Source of the DNA: Ferroplasma sp.
GTDB taxonomy: Archaea > Thermoplasmatota > Thermoplasmata > Thermoplasmatales > Thermoplasmataceae
Length of the DNA: 64,000 nt
Assembly (NCBI RefSeq): GCF_031200575.1
Contig: NZ_CP133597.1
Span: forward strand, 1,364,001-1,428,000
Direction: 5' to 3'
Shown here: positions 46,083 through 62,804 of the stretch, one piece after another
Layout of the letters: every line of letters begins with the position of its first letter
Numbering within the stretch: position 1 is the stretch's first letter
Notes under the pieces: model-generated
Database searches by the model: none
The model's input: the letters and a program-made list of their open reading frames with translations, nothing else
What the model was told of the DNA's origin: nothing
Translations under genes and position numbers: made by a program

Positions 46083-46927
46083 TCTTAAAGAGAGCCATAA
46101 TATGTCTATCATGGAAACCCAGCAGTCAAATGAGTTGTCAGCCTCGCACCACAATCTGCTTCAATGGAGCCATAATATTTCTATCATGGAAACTCTCATA
46201 ATATTTTGAAATATGATAAAATGCTTTTGAGCTTCAATGGAGCCATAATATTTCTATCATGGAAACTAGATAATAATACTCACCTCTGGAATATCCAGGA
46301 AAATAGCTTCAATGGAGCCATAATATTTCTATCATGGAAACCTGCCAGCCAGTATCCCATTTCTTTCTTTTGCGGATGCTTCAATGGAGCCATAATATTT
46401 CTATCATGGAAACTTTCCCCTATAATTGAAGAGGCAAAATTCTTTCTTATGCTTCAATGGAGCCATAATATTTCTATCATGGAAACTCTTACAAGCTGCT
46501 TTTCCCTTCTATGGGACCGCAAAGCTTCAATGGAGCCATAATATTTCTATCATGGAAACTTAAGAAAATCAAACGCATTCGGCGATGTTGAATTACCGCT
46601 TCAATGGAGCCATAATATTTCTATCATGGAAACTATATATAACCAATCCGTCCTATGCCGTCCAGTTCATGCTTCAATGGAGCCATAATATTTCTATCAT
46701 GGAAACATAGATAGGAGGAAAATTGTTTTAATCTCGCTTACAGATGCTTCAATGGAGCCATAATATTTCTATCATGGAAACTCTCATTTGCATGTGTGGG
46801 ATTAACACTCCCTGCTGTGCTTCAATGGAGCCATAATATTTCTATCATGGAAACCTACTGAAAGGGCAGTAAGGAGGGTAAGGTACATGTCGCTTCAATG
46901 GAGCCATAATATTTCTATCATGGAAAC
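46083..46927 (-). CRISPR. CRISPR array, 12 repeats of 36 bp, 11 spacers
   Basis: A repeat beginning GCTTCAATGGAGCC and ending CTATCATGGAAAC on the plus strand recurs with starts at 46083, 46158, 46231, 46306, 46378, 46451, 46524, 46598, 46671, 46746, 46819 and 46892. Spacers are 36-39 bp. The first repeat (46083-46118) is degenerate with about five differences, so it is the old trailer end. Read on the minus strand the repeat starts GTTTCCATGATAG and ends ATTGAAGC, a usual type I 5' tag. The new end and leader are thus on the right, next to cas2. The minus-strand repeat contains CCATGATA-GAAA-TATTATGG, a stem-loop. Confidence 0.98.
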
Positions 46928-47214
46928 AGATATTTGAACCATTCTATTTAGATTACCTCAGGTAAACATTGAATATATTAATTTTTAAGTCATATATAGG
47001 TTTAACTCTTCGAGTATTAAAAAATAAATCTACAATTACCTAAAAATGTTATGTAAAAGAAATAGATAAGAAATAAATTACCCTGCAAATAGAAAGATTC
47101 GAGTGTTCAGTGGTTAACCTTAAGGAACCTGAGCTCTCGATAGACTTGATATTATTGATAAGTATAGGGGCCTAATCCTCCTGCTATCACGGAGAGTTTT
47201 TCTATACTCACCAT
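46928..47214 (-). promoter_or_regulatory. CRISPR leader region
   Basis: About 287 AT-rich bases between the last intact repeat and the cas2 stop, with no gene. Transcription of the array should start here on the minus strand; a TATATATGACTT-like sequence (read on the minus strand near 46985-46997) could be the TATA box. An inverted repeat AGTATAG (about 47159) / CTATACT (about 47202) near cas2 may end the cas transcript or mark a hairpin. Confidence 0.6.
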
Positions 47215-47499
47215 TCACAGTATTATTGATTTTCTCTCTTTTTGTGTTTTTTTTATTCCCAAAGTTTCAATTTTGCTGTGTTTTTTCTTGCTTCCTATGT
47301 CTATAATCAAAATACTATCTTCTGATGGTTTTATAATTTCGTACAGTTCTGTAATCATTATCATTTTCTCTTTACCTGAAAGTTCGCACGAAAATACAGA
47401 ATATTGTAATGAATTGCCATACCCACGCATTAAATTATAGACATTACGAAGTCTTTTTGGTTCTGAGATATCATAGGTAACAATATAATTATTTCTCAT
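47215..47499 (-). CDS. cas2: CRISPR-associated endonuclease Cas2
   Basis: A 94-aa Cas2 with the ferredoxin-like start MRNNYIVTYDISEPKRLRNVYNLMRGYG, where the Asp of YDIS is the metal ligand, and the later QYSVFSCELSGKEK and SILIIDIG strands. It is the last gene of the cas operon, starting 7 nt after the cas4-cas1 stop. It forms the adaptation complex with Cas1. Length and motifs are normal. Confidence 0.97.
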   Translation of the reverse strand: MRNNYIVTYDISEPKRLRNVYNLMRGYGNSLQYSVFSCELSGKEKMIMITELYEIIKPSEDSILIIDIGSKKKHSKIETLGIKKTQKERKSIIL

Positions 47500-47505
47500 T
47501 ATAGA

Positions 47506-49137
47506 TCACCGTGTTGTTAGAGGTATATAGTCATTTATTTCCCCATTCACATACCTTGATAATAGCCTTGCCTGCACTTCTATTGTTCTTCTATAGCTCA
47601 CTGTATATCCAAATATTGGATGACGTATTAATGTATCCATTCTATTCTCATAGTATTGAATGACTTTTTTTCTGGCATTTTCTTCAATAGCAACGGCTTT
47701 CCCTGAACTTATAAAATCCGATTCCTTAATAATTGAATTATTAATAAGACCTAGCACAACCGAATCTCCTACAATAGCTCTGTATTCTTCCATAAGATCT
47801 AGGGCAAGGGCTGGCTTTCCGTACTTCATTCTGTGAAAAAACCCAACATAGGGATCGAGGCCCACTATGGTAAGGGAAACCAATACATCTTTGACTAATA
47901 AAGAATATATGTAAGAAAGCAAAGCATTAACTGGATCTAAAGGAGGTCTACGATTTCTATTTTCGAAATTGTATCCGAGAGGCCGCTTCAACATTGTTGA
48001 GAACTTTCCAAAATATATTCTAGCAGCACTTCCTTCCATTCCAAGTAGTTCCTGAAACGTTTCCACCATGGCTGTCTTTCCTATAAGATTCTGAAGTTCT
48101 TTGAGTGCAGTTTTATTATCGGTTTTTCCATTTCTTCTAAGCAATGTTCTTGAATTTTTAATTTTCCCAGCAACTATAGCTTTTGATATAGAAAGAGATT
48201 TTTTAAAATCTATAGATGTTTTATACTGGGCAACACGTAACTCACCATTTTTATTGTAATTACCGGCTGTTACCCCATAGAACCATCCAGAAAGGCTAAA
48301 ATAGCATATAGGGATATTTCGTTGCAATAATTCATGTAATGCTTGAGTAGTAATTTGTATATTTCCAAATATAGATAGGCTTGAAATGTCTATTAGACTT
48401 ACTGTAGAACTAGTTTCCTTTCCTCTTACTATTAATTGATTGTTTTTCTTTCCGATAGTAGCCCCCTGCTCTCTCACATACATTGGATATGTATTATCTC
48501 TAGCCGGATAGAGTCGTCTAAGGTCAACAAAATAACCCATTGAGAGATACTTTGTCTCATCTGGTAGGCATATAGCAGCAAGAGAGCAACGAATGCATTT
48601 AGGGCTATCTTCCAGAGGTTTCGGTATTACATCCTGATCTAGTAATTTCCTTATCTCAGCTATTTTTAAAAGTGTAGATTCCAACAGTTCTTCGGAAATT
48701 ATTATCTCCAACCTCTTTCTGTTCTTGTCATAGTATATGTATCCTTTGTGGCATTCATAGCCATTATCTCTTAATAAAAGGGCTTGAGCCGCAATTTGGT
48801 ACAAATCAGTATCCCATGCAGACCCATCAATATTCATACCTCCACTTTTATATTCTACAGGATAAAAAGAACCATTTTCCAGCTCTAGTAAATCTAACTT
48901 CCCAGAAAGTCCATATTTTTCACTCTGGAGGAATACTGACCTGGCCTTTCCTTTATTTTCTATTTCTTCAGTTAAGGGTTTTGGTTTGTCAACATTTCTG
49001 TGAATGAATCTGCCTCTTATTGTATCTTCAGAATCTGTGAACTGATTCTCCACAAATTCCAACCAGAACAATCTTGGGCAATAAACGAATTCGTTTAACA
49101 TTCTCAAAGGAATAAAAATATCATCCAATTTAATCAT
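47506..49137 (-). CDS. cas4-cas1: Cas4-Cas1 fusion protein
   Basis: A 543-aa fusion. The N-terminal about 200 residues are Cas4: RMLNEFVYCPRLFWLEFVE with the first cluster Cys, the RecB motif YPVEYKSGG, and the three C-terminal Cys in CIRCSLAAICLPDE. The rest is Cas1, with the metal residues Glu in LLGMEGSAARIYFGKF, His in YVGFFHRMKYGKPALALDLMEEYR and Asp in the same stretch. It selects, trims and integrates prespacers. Such fusions are typical of subtype I-G (I-U) and some I-B loci. The start overlaps the csb2 stop by 8 nt. Confidence 0.96.
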   Translation of the reverse strand: MIKLDDIFIPLRMLNEFVYCPRLFWLEFVENQFTDSEDTIRGRFIHRNVDKPKPLTEEIENKGKARSVFLQSEKYGLSGKLDLLELENGSFYPVEYKSGGMNIDGSAWDTDLYQIAAQALLLRDNGYECHKGYIYYDKNRKRLEIIISEELLESTLLKIAEIRKLLDQDVIPKPLEDSPKCIRCSLAAICLPDETKYLSMGYFVDLRRLYPARDNTYPMYVREQGATIGKKNNQLIVRGKETSSTVSLIDISSLSIFGNIQITTQALHELLQRNIPICYFSLSGWFYGVTAGNYNKNGELRVAQYKTSIDFKKSLSISKAIVAGKIKNSRTLLRRNGKTDNKTALKELQNLIGKTAMVETFQELLGMEGSAARIYFGKFSTMLKRPLGYNFENRNRRPPLDPVNALLSYIYSLLVKDVLVSLTIVGLDPYVGFFHRMKYGKPALALDLMEEYRAIVGDSVVLGLINNSIIKESDFISSGKAVAIEENARKKVIQYYENRMDTLIRHPIFGYTVSYRRTIEVQARLLSRYVNGEINDYIPLTTR

Positions 49138-50515
49138 CTGGTATAAATGAGCCCATTCCGAAATGTGAGAAACGACCTATGTTAAATGGCATTGAAATTT
49201 CACTGTTAAAAAGTAATCTGAATCCATATCCCCTGCCTGGTGCCTCATTTTTTCTACTTCGATAAAAATCAAGCCATAGAAATCTTTGCTGCCCTGTAGT
49301 TTCTTTTATTGGTAGTATTTCTATGGGAGCTGGCAATCCTATATAACAGAGCTCCTCAATTACCTGTTTTTTTAACCATTCAAAATAATCACCTCTGCCC
49401 TTTCTGTAGTGCTTGTTCAGGATAAACGGAGTCTGACTGACATATGTTTTGCTTTTAGGAAACAACGTGCTAGTCATGTCATTGAGCCATTCAACTGGAA
49501 ACATCTGAATATCAGGTTTTCCATTATCCTGATACATACTTTTCATAATGTTAAGAGCATATCTTTCTTCAAGTGTGAGTGCTGTCGACGATTTAACCAT
49601 TATATGATCTATCCTCCCATCTCCATTAATATCCAGAGTGGAAATGAAAATATGTTTATGTCCTTTCATTATGGAACTATCTGCTTCTATTCCAGAAAGG
49701 GTTGGTGAGATTTTCTTATATTTTTTCTTATAAATACCAAGTAGTTTTTTGTGGAATCTCTCAGCAATTATAATCGATTCGGTAATTAAAGGAAGCACGG
49801 AAGAGTTTAGTTCGTATATTACACCAAATTTTCGCCCCATATTAGATAATTGTTTGCTTTTATATTGCACATGCACACTATTTTCCGGTAATTGATAATA
49901 AACAAATTTCAGGGCAGGTGGATTATTTAGATGTTTTTTTAAAACTATTTCAGTAGAAATCCCCAAGTCTTGTATCCATTGACCTTGAGTTTTTGTTCCG
50001 TTATACAACTCCGGGACAGCAACTCTTATAGTATGTGTATTAGTTATTTCATTTACCGGAAAACAATTAATTGGCTTTGTTTTATCTTCAAGGCGCATTT
50101 CAATGAGTGATTCACTTCTCCCCAAATAATTTACATTACTGATAATTTTATTAAACATCTCTTTTTCAGGTTCAGTGAAAATACAATCCCATACAACATA
50201 TATTTTTTCATGAGGAAGAATAGCTGCAAAGGAATCATAAATTAAAGTACTGCTACTATTGGTTTTTAAATAATACGGTACACTGCAGTAAGAAATATTT
50301 GGAAGGTAAAATCTTGGCAGCTGACTCAGTTTTGTAAGAATGCTAATCACTACATTACTGTTACAGTAAGTTAATTTTCTTTTCCATGTATCTATAAATG
50401 CTCTCAATAGTCTATAAGGAGATGGTGGATACTCGATAGATCCCTCATTTACATTCCTATCATATGGGGTTGCATGATATTCGCCTGTGATAAAACGTAT
50501 TGAGATTGTTACCGT
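49130..50515 (-). CDS. csb2: Csb2 (Cas5-Cas6 fusion, GSU0054 family), probable ACG start
   Basis: A Csb2 protein, the Cas5-like and Cas6-like subunit of subtype I-G Cascade. Conserved parts are the N-terminal FITGEYHAT...EYPPSPYRLLRAF, NYLGRSESLIEM, and GYGFRLLFNSE. In-frame codons upstream of the TTG at 50407 contain the essential N-terminus but no ATG, GTG or TTG back to a stop at 50522-50524. An ACG at 50515-50513 lies 7-9 nt after a GAGGAG Shine-Dalgarno in the csb1 end, where an ATG is expected. From there it has 461 aa. A frameshift is unlikely since other frames have stops. It processes crRNA and forms the Cascade foot. Confidence 0.92.
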   Translation of the reverse strand, partial: TVTISIRFITGEYHATPYDRNVNEGSIEYPPSPYRLLRAFIDTWKRKLTYCNSNVVISILTKLSQLPRFYLPNISYCSVPYYLKTNSSSTLIYDSFAAILPHEKIYVVWDCIFTEPEKEMFNKIISNVNYLGRSESLIEMRLEDKTKPINCFPVNEITNTHTIRVAVPELYNGTKTQGQWIQDLGISTEIVLKKHLNNPPALKFVYYQLPENSVHVQYKSKQLSNMGRKFGVIYELNSSVLPLITESIIIAERFHKKLLGIYKKKYKKISPTLSGIEADSSIMKGHKHIFISTLDINGDGRIDHIMVKSSTALTLEERYALNIMKSMYQDNGKPDIQMFPVEWLNDMTSTLFPKSKTYVSQTPFILNKHYRKGRGDYFEWLKKQVIEELCYIGLPAPIEILPIKETTGQQRFLWLDFYRSRKNEAPGRGYGFRLLFNSEISMPFNIGRFSHFGMGSFIPDD

Positions 50516-50521
50516 ATGATA

Positions 50522-51556
50522 TCACTCCTCATTATTTGCATCTTCAATGGAACTTTTTTCTTCCTTATTGTTATCATTGTTATCATTTTTCTTATTTTCT
50601 TTTAATTGTGCAGTTATCTGTGTAACTACCATATTTGTTTTACACCTTTGTATTAATTCTTTTATATAGGATATCAATTCAGTTTTTTTGGGTAGATTAT
50701 CCAGAGAATAAGAATCAATAACCTTTAAATCGCATGCTGTCCGTAATTTGAGTTCTCCGGCAAATAGATCTCTTATTTTGTATAGAGAAAGTGCAATTAG
50801 TAGATTTGTTGGATCCTCGCCCAAATCATAGCTTTTAATTAGGCTTATATCAAGGTTGACATATGCAGTTATACGTTTAGCTGTGTAATCTGTCTTTGAA
50901 TATGGTATATTGGAATATGCTGACTTATCGGAAATTCCTTTATCCACCATATATTTTCCACCAGCATCTACTGTGGAAAATTTTACACCACCGTATGTTA
51001 CTTCTTTAATATCCTCACCCACTATATATGAACTGAGAGCCCTGGGAACCCGGAACGTTCCGCCAACATTAGACATAAATGCTCCATGAATCAATGAATT
51101 TATATCAAAATGGTAAAATGCGTATCCAATCTTTTTATAATCAGGATAAGCGAGACTAGCATAACCGGCCTCCTTTCTTAATTTCTCTACAAAGCCCTTA
51201 TCAGAAATAATATATGGAGAATTAATCCTATGGGCTTCGGTGAGTGAACTTATAGCGGCCATGTGTGTTTTATTTTTATCTTGTAAGTCTATCTTTATAT
51301 AAGAAAGACCATTGAACTCATCTATTAGATCAGGGGTGTTTTCCTTTATTATTGTTTTTTCAAAGTGGTTTGCCATAGACTGAGCACTTTCAACAACCAG
51401 CATTCTTGTACCATCAGGTCTTTCATAAGTTGCTGCACCTATTTCAGGAAAACCGGTAGGTTGAAAAAAACTACCCTGTAATGGTTCCAGTGGTATTTCC
51501 AGTAACAATCTATTCTCTTTTTTTACGTTTTCTATTGTATTTTCAATACTATTCAT
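50522..51556 (-). CDS. csb1: Csb1 (Cas7, GSU0053 family)
   Basis: The backbone Cas7 subunit of subtype I-G, 344 aa. The N-terminal RLLLEIPLEPLQGSFFQPTGFPEIGAATYERPDGTRMLVVESAQSMANHFE is a near-perfect family signature (QPTGFPdLG, VESxQSMAN). Many copies bind the spacer part of crRNA. The last 25 residues are rich in Lys, Asn, Asp and Glu. It starts within the csx17 end (8-nt overlap) and its stop sits beside the ACG start of csb2. Confidence 0.96.
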   Translation of the reverse strand: MNSIENTIENVKKENRLLLEIPLEPLQGSFFQPTGFPEIGAATYERPDGTRMLVVESAQSMANHFEKTIIKENTPDLIDEFNGLSYIKIDLQDKNKTHMAAISSLTEAHRINSPYIISDKGFVEKLRKEAGYASLAYPDYKKIGYAFYHFDINSLIHGAFMSNVGGTFRVPRALSSYIVGEDIKEVTYGGVKFSTVDAGGKYMVDKGISDKSAYSNIPYSKTDYTAKRITAYVNLDISLIKSYDLGEDPTNLLIALSLYKIRDLFAGELKLRTACDLKVIDSYSLDNLPKKTELISYIKELIQRCKTNMVVTQITAQLKENKKNDNNDNNKEEKSSIEDANNEE

Positions 51557-53819
51557 TTCTTATCATCTCCTTTTCTAGCAACTTTTGCCCAAATACGGTC
51601 TCTAGTAGATTTTCATGTTTGCTAAGTGGTATAAGCAATGCGGCAGCGAGTCTGATTCCACAGTTACCATCAGCAACCGATATATTTGAATAAAGGTTTT
51701 TATTCACAAGCAGTCTTTTTTGGGCTATGTTTGCAGCATCTCTAATCCTGTTTGACTTCAATAATGGTATTATTCTCGATTCTATTACGGTCTCAGTATC
51801 TTTTTTGCCCGGCATCATTACCGATTTTAAAATAGCATATTTAATATTAACAGGATAGTCTGACCTTCTAAGGTTTCCTTCGTATCTCATATATATTAGA
51901 TGTATTTTCTGCTGATTTTCCCAGTTGATCATAGATAATCCTAGAATTAAATTTTCAATTTTGTTTTCGTCTAAATTGCCATCAATAAACATGGATATAT
52001 CCTGCATAGTTGCCCCGAATACGCTATCTAAAGGAATTGTTTTTAATCCATCCTGAGTAGCTTTTATTAGTCTACGGTAGATCAAATTTGCCATCTTATT
52101 TGGGAGGTCATTTCCAATCCATGAAGTAACCCATGTAGAGTCAACCCAGCCATTATACTTTTTGTTAACAGGTTCAAGCTGTTCTCTTATGTTTCCAACA
52201 TCCCCTCTAATGGAGGCAATTGATAGCGCTATCCTAAATTCTGGACTGTTATCGTTTGAATAGTCTATCCAGTCAGCCTGTAATTGTCCAAGCGGAGCAT
52301 ATTCTTTTCTATGGATAGATGCGTATATTTCCATTTTTCCTAAGACTGAAATAATTCTTTGCGCATTATAAGGGGATGTGTAGGCAGCAAAATTGAAAAC
52401 TGCATTATTTATTGAATTTAGAAGTTGCTTATGTGATTCTGGAATATTAGTCAGTTTTGCACGGATGAATTTCTGGATCATTCTGTTGATTTTGTTTAGC
52501 CGTAATACTTTAGGGTCATATCCTACAAATATATTTGAAACTGGAATTGAAAGGAAATTACCCTGACCCTTTCTCTGATGTGTTACATATCGAACAAAAC
52601 CAGTAATGCCTTTGTCCACACCAAGAGATTTTACAGCTTCAAGAAATTCTAATCCAGTTTTTGCATACAAACCATTGTATACCACCCTTCCATAGGAGAA
52701 TAGTGACTTTAATTCAACTAAATGGGTTGGGCGATTCCATACAGGCAACCAGGTTTCTGAAGATTTGTTATCAGGTATTTGAGATGAAGAATATCCTGCT
52801 GGGAACAATTTAACGCTGAATGGAGAAAGCATGTAGCTTCTGGCATTGATAGAATTTTTCCTACTAATAGAATTTGACCACAGGAATAGCCCTTCTATTA
52901 AAAGGATAAAATCCCATGGGTTAATATCAAAATCTTTATTCTCTATACTATTTCCCTGATTGTATCCGCCAGACCTCCCAGGATAGAACTTTCCTATTTT
53001 TTCATTTTTAAGTTTATCAGTAGAGGTTCCAAAAATGGCGGATTCCAGTAGTTCTTGGGAATTTTCCATTTTTATTAGCATCATTATGATATATTGCATA
53101 AATTTCGTACTGTATTCAAGATCGCCTTCATTGCCTCCAGTACCCAATAAAGGAGCTGTAATTTTATCAAGGTTTGTATCTAGAACCAAACATGTATCAA
53201 GCCATTCAACAAAGTTGTCACTCATAGTCCCCCTTGCTTCTGCTATAATCTCACTAGTCTTGATTATCTTCTTTTCATATACATCAACACATTCCTTTAT
53301 ATCTTTATCATATGTGTAAAGATCCACTATTTTCTCATCATTGTTTAAATTTTTATTTATTCTATTAAGAATAACTGTCAGTTTCTCTTTCTCTTTGCGG
53401 CTTTTATTTTGAATTTCCCCACGAAATCTATTGTAAAAATCTGAAACTCTTTCTGTTCTGTAAGAAAAAGCCCTTGTTTTATAAACGTTATCAATATCCA
53501 ATTTTATTTTGTTGAACCTTTGAGATTGTTGAGACATTATTGTCGAGTATATATCTCCCTTCTTTTTAGGGTGTTGTTTATGTAAGTATAGAAAATTTCC
53601 TCTGTTCCATGGTGACATCACTGATGATGGGACATATTCTTCTAAAAAGAATTTTATAATTTCCTCTTTTGTTATATTGGAGTCTAGAACAAATCTATTG
53701 TTTTCCCAATATCCCTTTATATCTTCACACTTCTGCTCAGATAATAATCTGAATATACCTAGGCTTTTCATATATGAGCTCATTGGCTCTAGGTTGCAGT
53801 TGTCTAAATATAGCTTCAT
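51549..53819 (-). CDS. csx17: Csx17 (Cas8g-type large subunit, type I-G)
   Basis: A 756-aa protein. The N-terminus LDNCNLEPMSSYMKSLGIFRLLSEQKCEDIKGYW and YVPSSVMSPWNRGNFLYL match Csx17, the large subunit of subtype I-G (formerly I-U). This family is found only in that subtype, so it settles the classification. It should recognise the PAM and recruit Cas3. It overlaps cas3 by 4 nt upstream and csb1 by 8 nt downstream. Confidence 0.93.
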   Translation of the reverse strand: MKLYLDNCNLEPMSSYMKSLGIFRLLSEQKCEDIKGYWENNRFVLDSNITKEEIIKFFLEEYVPSSVMSPWNRGNFLYLHKQHPKKKGDIYSTIMSQQSQRFNKIKLDIDNVYKTRAFSYRTERVSDFYNRFRGEIQNKSRKEKEKLTVILNRINKNLNNDEKIVDLYTYDKDIKECVDVYEKKIIKTSEIIAEARGTMSDNFVEWLDTCLVLDTNLDKITAPLLGTGGNEGDLEYSTKFMQYIIMMLIKMENSQELLESAIFGTSTDKLKNEKIGKFYPGRSGGYNQGNSIENKDFDINPWDFILLIEGLFLWSNSISRKNSINARSYMLSPFSVKLFPAGYSSSQIPDNKSSETWLPVWNRPTHLVELKSLFSYGRVVYNGLYAKTGLEFLEAVKSLGVDKGITGFVRYVTHQRKGQGNFLSIPVSNIFVGYDPKVLRLNKINRMIQKFIRAKLTNIPESHKQLLNSINNAVFNFAAYTSPYNAQRIISVLGKMEIYASIHRKEYAPLGQLQADWIDYSNDNSPEFRIALSIASIRGDVGNIREQLEPVNKKYNGWVDSTWVTSWIGNDLPNKMANLIYRRLIKATQDGLKTIPLDSVFGATMQDISMFIDGNLDENKIENLILGLSMINWENQQKIHLIYMRYEGNLRRSDYPVNIKYAILKSVMMPGKKDTETVIESRIIPLLKSNRIRDAANIAQKRLLVNKNLYSNISVADGNCGIRLAAALLIPLSKHENLLETVFGQKLLEKEMIRNE

Positions 53820-56149
53820 GGTAAGCCCCCACTCGCCCTTTGATCAGCAGAACGGAGAATATTCTCCATCAATCCCAGTTTGAAAATACCAATTTTTGAA
53901 GAGAGTTCTAGTATTCTATAGTCCCAGCTTTCTCCTGTTTGAGTTTCACCCAGTTCCATGTATGATAATTTTAAAGTTGTATCATTCATGATCTCACCAT
54001 TAAAAAATTCAAAAGATTTTATTTTATCGCCATCCCATACACCCCGCGCAAATTTTTTATTGCTATCCCGTGGAACTTTTTCATCTGGTATTGCACGTAT
54101 AGAATTTCTTACCTTGCCATGATGGGCAACAACGAGATATGCAACAAGGTCGTTTTTACCATTTTCTAATGCTGCCAAACCGGAAACGAGTTCGTGCCTG
54201 AAATATTTTCGTTCATATTTACCTATCCACTCATTTTTAGGGGCCTTAGCAATATGGTTTTTTATGCTGGAAGGCGCATCATTCTGATTTATTATTTCCT
54301 GAAAAACCTCATGTGCTTTACCAACATCGTGCCATTTAGCAGCCTCCTCAATTTCGCCCTGGTAAGTCTGAATATATGGTATGTTGGACATTATTTTCTT
54401 AACTTTTTGATAGACTTCAAAACTATGCTCTTTTATTGATTTCCACTGATTCACAGAAGAATTATTGTCTTCATATGATGTCCTATTATTATTTGACTTA
54501 CATTTTATTTTCATTAGAGGCATTACATCATTTTTAGATTTCATATCCCATCCAATATCTTTACTATAAAATCCTGAACTGGAATGTATCATATAAAAAT
54601 TACCTGGAATGATACGATCTGTTTTCACCAAAACCCATTTTCCAAGCACCCATGAATATGTATATACATCCTTAATTTTTTTAGCAATTTCCAGCTCTAA
54701 AACCGGAACTGGACAAAGCTCATCCCTCTGCGGTAAATCTTCCATGTTTGGGTCTTCGAAATTACGCCAGAACAGATATGCATTTATGTCTGTACCGCTT
54801 CTAACGAATCTTGAAATATCAATATCATCACCCAATAACCCCGGATCTGTATTATACAGGTCCAGTAAGTCTTTTTTTCTAATCACAAAATTTGTTTTTA
54901 TATCGTCCAGTTGTTTTATTGAGCTAAATTCCTCATTTATAACAGAACCAGAATCGATATCCTTTAAAATTTTATAGCTATTGATTATTTCATCCTTTTC
55001 ATATGGCTCTGGCTTATAATGCACCATATCTCTTGTATTAATAACATATATCGTGGATTCTTCAAATTCACCATACCTATTGCAACGTCCGGATCTCTGT
55101 ATAATTGATGAGAGTGGCGCTATTTCAGTAAAAAGGGAACTACTTGAAATATCTATTCCCGCCTCAATAACTTGTGTTGATATGATAATCCGACTATTGC
55201 TTTTCTCCAATATTTTCTCAGCTAAGACATCCCTATCAGGACGTCTAAAATGCGAATGCAATAAAATAATCTCTGCATGATTGTCGATTTGTTTTTTCAA
55301 TTTTGATAGAGAACAGAATAGATTTATTGACTTACTAACTGTGTTTAAAATAACAATGGAGTTACCTTTATGATTTTCTAATACAAACTTGCTTAATTTG
55401 TCCATATCCTCTATACATGCGTCTTTTACATCTGGGAATTGGATATGCTTGTTTGCCCTATATATTTTGTTTAAAGTTTTATCGGCAAGGTCAGCTTTAG
55501 ATATTTCAAGAATTTTATGTTCATCCTTGAAATCAACGCTTGAGATAGAATCTGGAGATAAACTGGCACTCATCCATAAGGATTTGGTAGAGCCGAATAC
55601 CCCGATTATATTTCTAAAACCCTGCAGTTGTGTGCCAGTTTTTAGGGCATCACCCATTAATTGTATCTCATCGAATACCCAGAAGCTGTCGTTATTAAGT
55701 AAGCCAAAGTCCATCGGCCACCTAAACTTATTTGCACCATATCCTCTATTTAATGCCCTTGAAAGCAATATGTCCTGAGTTCCAACTAACACAATGAAAT
55801 CTTCAGGGTATATGTCCCATAAAGTATTATCTTCTCCACCTTCCAGTAAATATATTCTAATGGTGGATTCTGATATCTCATTAAATTTATTTATATATTT
55901 CTTAGCTCGTTTATACGTTTGCTCTACTAAAGTTCTCATAGGTAAACAGTAGACTAAACGTTTCTGAGTATTCTCCTTATGAGAATATATTTTCCATAAC
56001 CAATCTAACAAAACAGTTTCTGTTTTTCCAGAACCTGTAAATGCATTCAGTATAGTGTAATCATCTTCAGAATATCGAATCTGAAATGGATATGGAGAGA
56101 ATTCAGTTATTGATTTAAAAAATTCACTATAATTTTTATAAGCAATCAA
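53816..56149 (-). CDS. cas3: Cas3 helicase-nuclease with C-terminal HD domain
   Basis: A 777-aa Cas3. The helicase is at the N-terminus: Walker A TGSGKTE, VFDEIQLM in place of DEAD/H, and IISTQVIEAGIDIS ... IQRSGRCNRYGE (motif VI). The HD nuclease domain is C-terminal: HSFEVYQKV, AAKWHDVGKAHEVFQ, RHELVSGLAAL and VVAHHGKVR. This order, helicase then HD, is known for subtype I-G. The start is TTG at 56149; a TATA box (56174-56188) is about 25-30 nt upstream. It is first of the operon and unwinds and shreds target DNA. Confidence 0.95.
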   Translation of the reverse strand: MIAYKNYSEFFKSITEFSPYPFQIRYSEDDYTILNAFTGSGKTETVLLDWLWKIYSHKENTQKRLVYCLPMRTLVEQTYKRAKKYINKFNEISESTIRIYLLEGGEDNTLWDIYPEDFIVLVGTQDILLSRALNRGYGANKFRWPMDFGLLNNDSFWVFDEIQLMGDALKTGTQLQGFRNIIGVFGSTKSLWMSASLSPDSISSVDFKDEHKILEISKADLADKTLNKIYRANKHIQFPDVKDACIEDMDKLSKFVLENHKGNSIVILNTVSKSINLFCSLSKLKKQIDNHAEIILLHSHFRRPDRDVLAEKILEKSNSRIIISTQVIEAGIDISSSSLFTEIAPLSSIIQRSGRCNRYGEFEESTIYVINTRDMVHYKPEPYEKDEIINSYKILKDIDSGSVINEEFSSIKQLDDIKTNFVIRKKDLLDLYNTDPGLLGDDIDISRFVRSGTDINAYLFWRNFEDPNMEDLPQRDELCPVPVLELEIAKKIKDVYTYSWVLGKWVLVKTDRIIPGNFYMIHSSSGFYSKDIGWDMKSKNDVMPLMKIKCKSNNNRTSYEDNNSSVNQWKSIKEHSFEVYQKVKKIMSNIPYIQTYQGEIEEAAKWHDVGKAHEVFQEIINQNDAPSSIKNHIAKAPKNEWIGKYERKYFRHELVSGLAALENGKNDLVAYLVVAHHGKVRNSIRAIPDEKVPRDSNKKFARGVWDGDKIKSFEFFNGEIMNDTTLKLSYMELGETQTGESWDYRILELSSKIGIFKLGLMENILRSADQRASGGLP

Positions 56150-56173: not shown

Positions 56174-56188
56174 AAATATATATAAATA
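56174..56188 (-). promoter_or_regulatory. TATA box of the cas operon
   Basis: An AATATTTATATATAT-like sequence on the minus strand lies about 25-35 nt before the TTG start of cas3, the right place for a leaderless cas mRNA. The IS256-type left terminal repeat begins only about 12 bp upstream (56200). Any upstream BRE or activator site beyond that is separated by the insertion. Confidence 0.6.
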
Positions 56189-56199
56189 TTTAGTTGGTT

Positions 56200-57458
56200 G
56201 TGTACCATATTTTGTGTAAATATAAACCCCCTGTTAATAATGAAATGATCATTAAATAACAGGGAGAAATACCTCTTTTGAACAAAAAGGAGGTAATAAA
56301 ATATTGAATATGACAATATAAACATATCGAATGTAGAAGATATAATAGAACAGACAGTTAAAGAAAAGCTGGAAGCACTTATGAGAATAGAGCATGACCA
56401 ATATTTAGAGGAGAATCCAGGAATAAAGAATTGCTTCTATAAAAGGAATTTAAAGACCAAACACGGTGAATTAAAGGAATTATCAGTGCCAAGGAACAGG
56501 GATAATACATTCCACAGTGCAGTAATAGATAATAACAGGGTAGGCCTTGAGGAACTGATAACATCAATGTACTCAAATGGAGTATCCACAGGGAGGATAT
56601 CAGCTATATTGAAGGATATATTCAATAACAGGTACTCTCCATGATCAATATCCAGAATAACAGACTTAACACTGGAAGAGGTAAATAAGTTTGTCAACAG
56701 GAAGCTTGACAAAAATTACATAGCTGTAATGTTCGATGGATTGTTCTTCTACTTAAGGAGGGAAACAGTAGACAAGGATCCTGCAATATTTGCATTAGGT
56801 ATTAAGGAATCAGGAGAGTATGAGATATTGGGATTCTATTTAACAATAAAGGAGTCACATAATAACTACAAGGACGTTTTAGAAGACCTATACAGAAGGG
56901 GATTGAAGGAATCATTGTTATTCATAGCAGATGGAATTACAGATTTAGATGAGGATATAATGAAGATATACCCGGGAAGTGATTTCCAGCTGTGCACAAT
57001 ACACTATTCCAGGGGATTGAAATCCAAGGTAAAGGAAAAGGATATGGAAATAATAGAAGATGCAAATAAAATGTTTAAATGCAGCAATAAGCAGGAGGCA
57101 ATAGCAAGATTCAATGAAATTAAGGATAAATGGGAGAATAGGCATCCAAATGTAATATACAATACTGAGAAAAAGCTCGGTCAGTTATTGAGATTCTATA
57201 TTTATACCTCTAAAATAAGGAATTCATTTAAATCTACAAATGAGATAGAGAGATTGAATGGTGAGATAAGAAGGAGGGTAAAGGTAATATCATCATTCCC
57301 TGATGGGGGCTCTGCAATGAAGATGTTCTATTTGAAATCCATAGAGTTCAATTCAAAGCATGCATTCAGGAAGATGAGAGATGCTATAAATGCAATGATG
57401 AGATTAAAGAGATGTTCAATAAGAGGTACCCTTTATAAATACGCAAAATATGGTACAC
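56200..57458 (+). mobile_element. IS256-type insertion sequence
   Basis: An element of about 1.26 kb bounded by the perfect 15-bp terminal inverted repeats GTGTACCATATTTTG (56200-56214) and its complement CAAAATATGGTACAC (57444-57458). Inside lies an IS256/Mutator transposase on the plus strand. I do not see an exact 8-9-bp target duplication at the ends. It sits between cas3 and the divergent nuclease gene. Confidence 0.88.
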
Positions 57459-57541: not shown

Positions 57542-59347
57542 ATGAGCTTAACTAGCATAATTAAGGAAAGCCCTGAAATTCAAAATTTCCTAGTCTCACG
57601 CATAAAGACTCGTCCAAAAATACCAGATACTAAAAATATAACATTTTCTAATAATGTTAATCCGTCTATGGTTGGAACTGCTTTTGATTATATGTTTAGA
57701 TTTGAGTTAAAGAGAAAATATCCATGGGCAATTGAAAGTGGATGGATTGCACAGAATGGCTTAAGTAATATGGTATTGGCTAAATTCCAAGTGGGAGATG
57801 GAGCCGACTCACCACATCACCTTTTACTTATTAATTGGGCTGACACCGGTCAACGAACAATGGATTATACAAAATCTGCAAGGGAAAAATATTACAAAAA
57901 TCCTAGCGATAAGAATTTGAGGAAACTAGTAGAGATGTGCTACAGATTAAGCTATCTGGACGTGATTTATAGAGAAGGCAAACTCCCTTCTGTTCCTGTA
58001 CCAAAGGATAAACTCATGCCTGCGCCAACTGAGGAAGAAATAGATGATATTATTTCAATGATTTCAAAATCAGAGGAATTTATTAATTCTGAAACATTTG
58101 CCAATAGCAAATTCATAGTATTAAATCCAGATTTTGGAGATTATTCAAAGTTGGTTCGTGGGGCTGATGCCGATATAATCACTTCTACCTCACTTATAGA
58201 TTTAAAAACATCCCGAAATCTACGAATAACAAATTACGACTTAGCCCAAATAGTGGGATATTACTTCCTGCTCCGGCTCTATAATGAAGAACACTCCCAT
58301 CTTCTAATACCATATGTTTTAAATGAGATGAAGATGGGGCGGAGATTTTTGCACGAAAGATATAAAGAGGGTGAATATCCCATGGAAAATTATTTCTTCA
58401 GCCAATCCGAAATATATAAATTTCCAGATATTTCTGAAATCGGGATATTTTTTTCAAGATATGGTATGGAATATACAAGTCCTGTAGATAACGTCTCTAT
58501 TAATAGAGAAGACCTTATAAAATTTGAAGAATTAATTAAAGATTTTAAAGAAACTCGGCAAATCCAAATTATAGAACTTATGAAATTGAAGGATGTTGGA
58601 TCCATACGCTCAAGAACACTTACTGATATGGGCATTAAAACTATAGAGGAACTTGCAAATTTTCCCTTAAGCAGGGGAAAGAGAGTAATGATAAATAATG
58701 TCGGCTTTGACAGACTCCACACCATTGCAAGGGAATATTTGGATCATAAAATTGAACTGAGAAAAAATGTAACTATTGATGAGGCAATTAAAACCTTTGA
58801 CTTTAGTGATGAGGTTTATCTTGATATTGAAACAACTGGGCTTTTGTCAAATTCACAAATATGGTTAATTGGAATGTGGTTCAAGAGAGAAAATAAACTC
58901 ATTTCACTATTTGCCAGTGAACCTAGTAAAGAAAAGACTATACTAAAACAATACCTGCAGATAGTATCTGGTATAAGAGGTGCAATTGTCACTTTTTCTG
59001 GGAAGGGTTTTGATAATGAACTTATTGAAAGCAGACTTAAGGAATATAGATTGTGGTACAAATCTAAACCACCAGTTTATCTAGATATTTTGCAGGTTAT
59101 AAGGAGGTCGGTATTTATACCGGCCAGTAATGGTTTAAAGAACTTGGCTGAATGGATGGGTTATACTTTCAAACATCCAGACCTAAGTGGTGCCGCAATG
59201 CCTCAATTATATAATGAATATCTTAATATGCATGATCAAAAACTATATAACAATCTTATAGAATACAATGAGGATGATGTCAAGTCTCTATCGTATGTCG
59301 TTGATTTTATAAGACATGTTTTGTTAGAGCGAAAACAACATGCTTAA
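57542..59347 (+). CDS. RecB-like nuclease fused to HhH and DEDD exonuclease domains, next to CRISPR
   Basis: A 601-aa multi-domain protein. Residues about 40-330 contain a PD-(D/E)XK nuclease: RGADADIITSTSLIDLKTSRN with D211, D220 and K222, then NYDLAQIVGYYFLL, the Q-x-x-x-Y RecB helix (Q236, Y240). Residues about 345-400 look like a helix-hairpin-helix (LKDVGSIRSRTLTDMGIKTIEELANF). Residues about 420-590 are a DEDD RNase H-like exonuclease: VYLDIETTG (D428, E430), FSGKGFDNEL (D491), YLDILQVIRR (D514) and EYNEDDVKSL (D578/D579). The layout recalls TM0106-type YprB nucleases. It is upstream of, and divergent from, the cas operon, so a CRISPR-accessory or DNA-repair role is possible. Confidence 0.8.
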   Translation: MSLTSIIKESPEIQNFLVSRIKTRPKIPDTKNITFSNNVNPSMVGTAFDYMFRFELKRKYPWAIESGWIAQNGLSNMVLAKFQVGDGADSPHHLLLINWADTGQRTMDYTKSAREKYYKNPSDKNLRKLVEMCYRLSYLDVIYREGKLPSVPVPKDKLMPAPTEEEIDDIISMISKSEEFINSETFANSKFIVLNPDFGDYSKLVRGADADIITSTSLIDLKTSRNLRITNYDLAQIVGYYFLLRLYNEEHSHLLIPYVLNEMKMGRRFLHERYKEGEYPMENYFFSQSEIYKFPDISEIGIFFSRYGMEYTSPVDNVSINREDLIKFEELIKDFKETRQIQIIELMKLKDVGSIRSRTLTDMGIKTIEELANFPLSRGKRVMINNVGFDRLHTIAREYLDHKIELRKNVTIDEAIKTFDFSDEVYLDIETTGLLSNSQIWLIGMWFKRENKLISLFASEPSKEKTILKQYLQIVSGIRGAIVTFSGKGFDNELIESRLKEYRLWYKSKPPVYLDILQVIRRSVFIPASNGLKNLAEWMGYTFKHPDLSGAAMPQLYNEYLNMHDQKLYNNLIEYNEDDVKSLSYVVDFIRHVLLERKQHA

Positions 59348-62593: not shown

Positions 62594-62731
62594 TAATATT
62601 TATTTTAAGTATAATATAATCCAGTAATTATATAATATTATTTTTATATTACAAAAACAGGATCGGGAGTATATAAATAGGGCTAAGATATTTCTATCAA
62701 TGTATTACAGGGAGTTTAATACTTATAAATG

Positions 62732-62804
62732 CGCCCCGAACGGGATTTGAACCCGTGTCACAGGCTCGACAGGCCTGTATGATAGGCCGCTACACTATCG
62801 GGGC
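62732..62804 (-). tRNA. tRNA-Asp (anticodon GTC)
   Basis: On the minus strand the acceptor arms GCCCCGA and TCGGGGC pair, followed by discriminator G. The anticodon stem CAGGC/GCCTG encloses CTGTCGA, so the anticodon is GTC. The T arm is ACGGG-TTCAAAT-CCCGT. CCA is not encoded. The whole is 73 nt, with no intron. The AT-rich accessory block ends next to its 3' end, so it may be an integration site. Confidence 0.96.

Follow-up and report, generated by a model that had tools for sequence, protein, structure and literature searches.

The window, a stretch of 64,000 nucleotides from the chromosome of an archaeon, Ferroplasma sp., carries a complete subtype I-G CRISPR-Cas system on a variable island between a radical-SAM gene and tRNA-Asp. 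Its origin is an acquisition or exchange among Thermoplasmatales and not a recent arrival from bacteria. We put the probability of this reading at about 90%. The evidence consists of the gene content, intact catalytic residues, the geometry of the CRISPR repeat, an island with empty sites in relatives and a position common to the sister species. Judged by these properties the immune system is apparently working, and Ferroplasma joins the archaea with a predicted I-G immunity. Subtype I-G had been described before in Thermoplasmatales, in E-plasma and, under the wrong name I-C, in Cuniculiplasma S5. Unexpected is the start of csb2, which in this genome and in the sister species (genome G387) has no standard start codon.

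The operon comprises six genes on the minus strand (47215-56149), with coordinates and strand exactly as assigned by the first-pass annotation. The assignment to I-G and the archaeal host were borne out as well. Five proteins were judged by the NCBIfam cut-offs for I-G, Cas2 by the general Cas2 model; Csx17, Csb1, Csb2, Cas3g and Cas4-Cas1 all exceed their I-G cut-offs. The PF09609 (Csb2) profile has no match in the window genome, but none in any control either. The features of the locus are:

46084..46118, minus strand: decayed terminal CRISPR repeat at the leader-distal end; its 35 nt align to the sister repeat at 88.6%
46158..46927, minus strand: CRISPR array, 11 perfect 36-nt repeats GTTTCCATGATAGAAATATTATGGCTCCATTGAAGC (minus-strand reading), spacers of 36-39 nt
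46928..47214, minus strand: leader of 287 nt between cas2 and the first repeat, alignable to G387 up to its first repeat
47215..47499, minus strand: cas2; TIGR01573, 49 bits (cut-off 24.5); best PADLOC match Cas2g
47506..49137, minus strand: cas4-cas1 fusion (cas4g/cas1g); NF049935, 707 bits (cut-off 560)
49130..50515, minus strand: csb2 (cas5-6g, a Cas5-Cas6 fusion), counted from an in-frame ACG at 50515; TIGR02165, 47.6 bits (cut-off 45); PADLOC Cas56g, 243 bits
50522..51556, minus strand: csb1 (cas7g); PF09617 and TIGR02570, the latter with 66 bits (cut-off 38)
51549..53819, minus strand: csx17 (cas8g, large subunit); TIGR04113, 485 bits (cut-off 150)
53816..56149, minus strand: cas3g, helicase with C-terminal HD domain; TIGR02621, 612 bits (cut-off 400)
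56175..56192, minus strand: TATA-like and AT-rich sequence ahead of cas3, with a similar one in the sister genome; putative promoter
56200..57458, no strand assigned: decayed IS256-type element whose transposase is split and whose inverted repeats of 27 nt are 89% complementary
57542..59347, plus strand: RecB/RNase H-like nuclease (TM0106-like), partial match to the candidate defence family PDC-S61
62731..62804, minus strand: tRNA-Asp (GTC), edge of the island

The genes are tightly packed. Overlaps of 4-8 nt, initially ascribed to the operon as a whole, exist at three of the five junctions (cas3/csx17, 4 nt; csx17/csb1, 8 nt; csb2/cas4-cas1, 8 nt). The cas4-cas1/cas2 junction is a 6-nt gap, and csb1 and csb2 are separated by about 6 nt provided that ACG is the start. 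The start codon of cas3 is TTG; it is aligned with a GTG in the sister genome.

The operon had been called complete. This holds for the genes, yet the array (46084-46927) and the leader (46928-47214) had been overlooked. The array has a total of 11 spacers, the 11th of which (46119-46157) adjoins the decayed repeat. The decayed repeat occupies the low-coordinate end and the leader adjoins cas2, from which it follows that array and operon share the minus-strand orientation. Folding of the repeat yields a hairpin of 8 bp; exactly 4 nt separate it from the handle ATTGAAGC. All four arrays from Thermoplasmatales have this 8-bp hairpin, and changes between them on one side of the stem are compensated on the other (CCATGATA/TATTATGG, CCATGATT/AATCATGG and CCATGACT/AGTCATGG); in the repeats of E-plasma and of G067, a Cuniculiplasma-like genome which we take to be Cuniculiplasma S5, it is preserved via such paired changes. 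Csb2 of a bacterial I-G effector cuts the repeat 4 nt past the hairpin, so that a handle of 8 nt remains (PMC9638904). Repeat length, hairpin, 4-nt gap and 8-nt handle of the Ferroplasma array are those of I-G, and the geometry matches this cleavage rule exactly.

The residues expected of the enzymes are in place. Cas3 has Walker A, DEIQ, motif VI and HDVGK; the HD motif is located at residue 607 of 777, i.e., C-terminally as in other I-G systems. The Cas4 domain possesses its nuclease residues and cluster cysteines (C20/D82/E95/K97/C181/C184/C190), the Cas1 domain the E/H/D triad (E368/H435/D447). Csb2 has a C-terminal His in an SHFG motif, which probably is the counterpart of the catalytic H503 of Thioalkalivibrio sulfidiphilus because of its place in a C-terminal H-[FY]-G motif that Thioalkalivibrio halophilus has as well. 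By analogy with the characterised bacterial I-G system, from which all enzyme activities are carried over here, the array would be transcribed from the leader adjoining cas2, and Csb2 would cut each repeat 4 nt past the hairpin to yield crRNAs with the 8-nt 5' handle. Several copies of Csb1 together with Csb2 and Csx17 would assemble on the crRNA and locate matching DNA; the effector on its matched DNA would then recruit Cas3, which is predicted to unwind and degrade the target. New spacers would be added by the Cas4-Cas1 fusion with Cas2. No spacer targets were found in phages, plasmids, IMG/VR (searched with four exact spacer cores) or about 2.1 Mb of collected loci. This result and the shortness of the array (11 spacers) count against the reading of a working system.

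The system resides in a 16.6 kb AT-rich island. At its left the island is bordered by a core radical-SAM gene, which is present in most genomes of the genus at 65-77% identity; the right flank from window position 62723 onward (tRNA-Asp, hemA) is syntenic in the genus. In F. acidiphilum Y the site is empty: the positions corresponding to window 46094 and 62723 are only 308 bp apart. It is likewise empty in the genome which we take to be fer1, where the flanks that are 16.6 kb apart in the window are separated by about 328 bp. No relic of the operon was seen at these empty sites. In the sister species G387, a metagenome-assembled genome (MAG) whose contig matches MAG WH5.bin18, operon and leader adjoin the same tRNA-Asp with 74.6% nucleotide identity over 9.3 kb. 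A further relative (G148) has at this chromosomal site a tyrosine integrase overlapping tRNA-Asp (L126:2369-3277). With the operon in two genomes, an integrase element in another and an empty site in two more, the tRNA-Asp site thus is an exchange point in the genus for defence and mobile cargo. Empty sites in relatives and a tRNA at the edge are properties of a genomic island; an integrase of its own was not found among the island ORFs examined, nor was a duplicate of the tRNA or of its 3' end, as left by att duplication, seen in the window. One relative, G178, was left out of the count of operon absences: in that bin the radical-SAM gene and hemA have no orthologous match, a full match for tRNA-Asp is missing, and the region may be unassembled.

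The remaining content of the island differs between the two species. The IS256-type element, which ends 51 bp before cas3, and the RecB/RNase H-like nuclease are both absent from the sister locus. The nuclease is absent from nine other genomes of the genus, i.e., it is present in one of ten, the window genome. The island further encodes a GNAT acetyltransferase and small ORFs. At its edge, the stretch 62600-62677 recurs several times in similar form (80-97%) in other Ferroplasma genomes and may belong to a small repeat element.

A comparison of GC content had been proposed together with the original annotation, and the operon indeed is AT-rich, with about 34% against 40.6 +/- 3.3% in 208 sampled genes. 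The operon genes rank at the 0.5th to 7th percentile of the sampled genes, which is unusual but not extreme. Csx17 is present in 12 of 400 genomes of the class and in 6 of 77 genomes of the family. A scan of genome contigs with a single sequence found no Csx17 relatives; an alignment-based search was required. The first-pass annotation had reasoned that close homologs throughout the Thermoplasmata would speak against a transfer between domains; relatives do exist in several genera, but their occurrence is patchy. Taken together, the island, the empty site, the patchy presence and the AT-rich composition indicate that this locus is horizontally mobile.

Could the system be an old vertical inheritance in Thermoplasmatales, accompanied by many losses, rather than a product of exchange between lineages? 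In small trees the support for a group of the three Ferroplasma proteins is 100/100 for Cas4-Cas1 and 86/85 for Cas3. When the three Ferroplasma rows are held together this is not rejected for Csx17, Csb1 and Csb2 (AU p 0.17-0.30), and the window genome and G387 share the site. Synonymous divergence between these two genomes is 1.4-2.5 in the cas genes, which is near saturation, and about 1.06 in rpoB; these values fit, yet do not prove, an inheritance from their common ancestor. However, with the operon in 6 of the family's 77 genomes many losses would be required, and the empty sites have kept no trace of it. Further to this point, G333 (L022), which belongs to the same genus, carries a further I-G operon, which is divergent. 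Of its proteins Cas4-Cas1 shares 57% identity with that of the window, yet Csx17, Csb1 and Csb2 share 31-42% and are as distant as those of other genera; an exchange of effector genes in the G333 operon is possible. We thus consider purely vertical descent doubtful and favor acquisition or exchange within the Thermoplasmatales.

The start of csb2 deserves separate consideration. The genes csb1 and csb2 are in the same frame with a single TGA between them. Neither in the window nor in G387 (L021) is there an ATG, GTG or TTG between this TGA and the Csb2 motif EYHATP..NEG..PPSP, whereas every other relative with a recognized motif possesses such a codon ahead of it. At 12 residues before the motif most relatives have ATG; window and G387 have ACG (50515-50513, in the start-less stretch 50513-50524). 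The conserved N-terminus of csb2 can be followed in frame back to the stop codon of csb1. Comparing the first 36 codons of window and G387 yields 17 synonymous differences and 1 nonsynonymous difference, at 75% identity of the Csb2 proteins. The stretch, by this measure, is under strong purifying selection, and these codons therefore are most probably translated. Ahead of the ACG is a Shine-Dalgarno-like GGAGTGAT. When the upstream sequence is paired with the 16S tail of the window genome, GGATCACCTCC, both the window and G387 reach -8.6 kcal/mol, compared to -8.9 kcal/mol for csb1; this level is reached by 4.75% of random positions and is supportive, not decisive, for initiation at ACG.

From two observations, the lack of ATG, GTG or TTG and the selection on the N-terminus, we infer a route of translation and a purpose. 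In our opinion csb2 rather probably uses a non-standard start, foremost the ACG at 50515-50513, or else is reached by read-through of the csb1 TGA, which would generate a Csb1-Csb2 fusion. ACG initiation is the simplest reading, read-through its main rival. The arrangement could have been retained since it gives fewer Csb2 than Csb1 molecules, as required for a complex with few Csb2 and about seven Cas7. Other candidates were discarded. A 425-aa ORF beginning with TTG at 50407 loses the conserved HATP..NEG..PPSP N-terminus; a sequencing error is contradicted by the same arrangement in the separately assembled sister MAG; for a -1 frameshift from a short upstream ATG ORF into csb2 no slippery site was seen. 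RNA structure at the csb1/csb2 junction does not go beyond chance (z 0.04). Among the papers found by literature searches on ACG or other non-canonical starts and archaea, no title or abstract describes an archaeal case. Should ACG prove to be the start of csb2, the gene would be a clear example of non-standard initiation that evolution has retained in an archaeal operon. Genes of this kind are shortened or overlooked by annotation.

One might alternatively view csb2 as a gene which has lost its start in a decaying locus with a dead system. The missing start codon, which could entail poor Csb2 expression, the decayed terminal repeat and the IS remnant upstream of cas3 would all suit such a view. 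Yet the sister species has kept the same start-less csb2 across a considerable protein divergence, its N-terminal codons have changed almost exclusively at synonymous positions, and all remaining genes have uninterrupted reading frames and have kept their catalytic residues. Decay is thus highly improbable, and an apparently working system is the better description.

A transfer from a bacterium had been suggested at the outset since I-G was taken to be mostly bacterial. The premise is correct: in the Csx17 tree, built like the large Cas4-Cas1 tree from the best 80 of 251 loci found, 72 of 87 rows are bacterial. The conclusion is not supported for this copy. Csx17 of the window groups with six other rows, all seven from Thermoplasmata (96, a starred branch), and this set adjoins a few deep-branching bacterial sequences, and in the Cas4-Cas1 tree all 13 archaeal fusions are on one side of a branch (support 87). 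These two large trees are quick ones without a mixture model; for the Thermoplasmatales part the small trees, made with more care, give the same picture. Among the trees' rows the nearest ones for Csx17 and Cas4-Cas1 are exclusively from Thermoplasmata, and the best bacterial Csx17 identities are about 27-32% (best 80 of 251 loci); the operon is not nested among close bacterial homologs. The Csx17 tree requires six changes of archaeal and bacterial labels, three of them forced by starred branches. Because of these changes I-G probably did cross between domains, but long ago; either direction is compatible with the trees, and the window copy has no close bacterial relative. The idea that a bacterium recently passed the complete operon to Ferroplasma, for which the bacterial predominance, the AT-rich operon on an island and the label changes might be invoked, is extremely improbable in view of the solely Thermoplasmata neighbors, the remote bacterial Csx17 and Thermoplasmatales repeats which are near-identical in form. 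The picture of a fresh bacterial gift is to be replaced by that of an archaeal I-G with an adaptation-module lineage of its own.

Within the genus, F. acidiphilum Y has a subtype I-D system in a cas island at 905,732-938,099 (PMC5473848), in which our Cas1 match at 924600-925454 of genome G034 is located; the window's genus is by this almost certainly Ferroplasma. Like the window locus it is in a predicted genomic island; it differs in subtype and in chromosomal position. The bacterial I-G system of Thioalkalivibrio sulfidiphilus shares the effector of Csb1, Csb2, Csx17 and Cas3 and a 36-nt repeat (PMC9638904). Its cleavage 4 nt past the hairpin with an 8-nt handle is fitted by the Ferroplasma repeat at the level of sequence; unlike Ferroplasma, it has extra genes between csb2 and cas4-1 (PMC9638904). 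For Cuniculiplasma divulgatum S5, a cluster that lists Csx17 and Cas4/Cas1 appeared under the name Type I-C (PMC5155288). By the family models used the G067 cluster (L018) is I-G, which suggests that the published name should be I-G instead. It has the same genes in the same order as Ferroplasma, but Cas4-Cas1 is 51% and Csx17 32% identical, csb2 starts with ATG and the repeat stem is different. Finally, the I-G system reported in E-plasma, another member of the Thermoplasmatales (PMC10354927), has the same six proteins in the order cas3-csx17-csb1-csb2-cas4/1-cas2 followed by the array, and the same repeat form. Csx17 is 32% and Cas4-Cas1 49% identical; unlike in Ferroplasma, csb2 of E-plasma starts with ATG, and 36 spacers are reported (PMC10354927).
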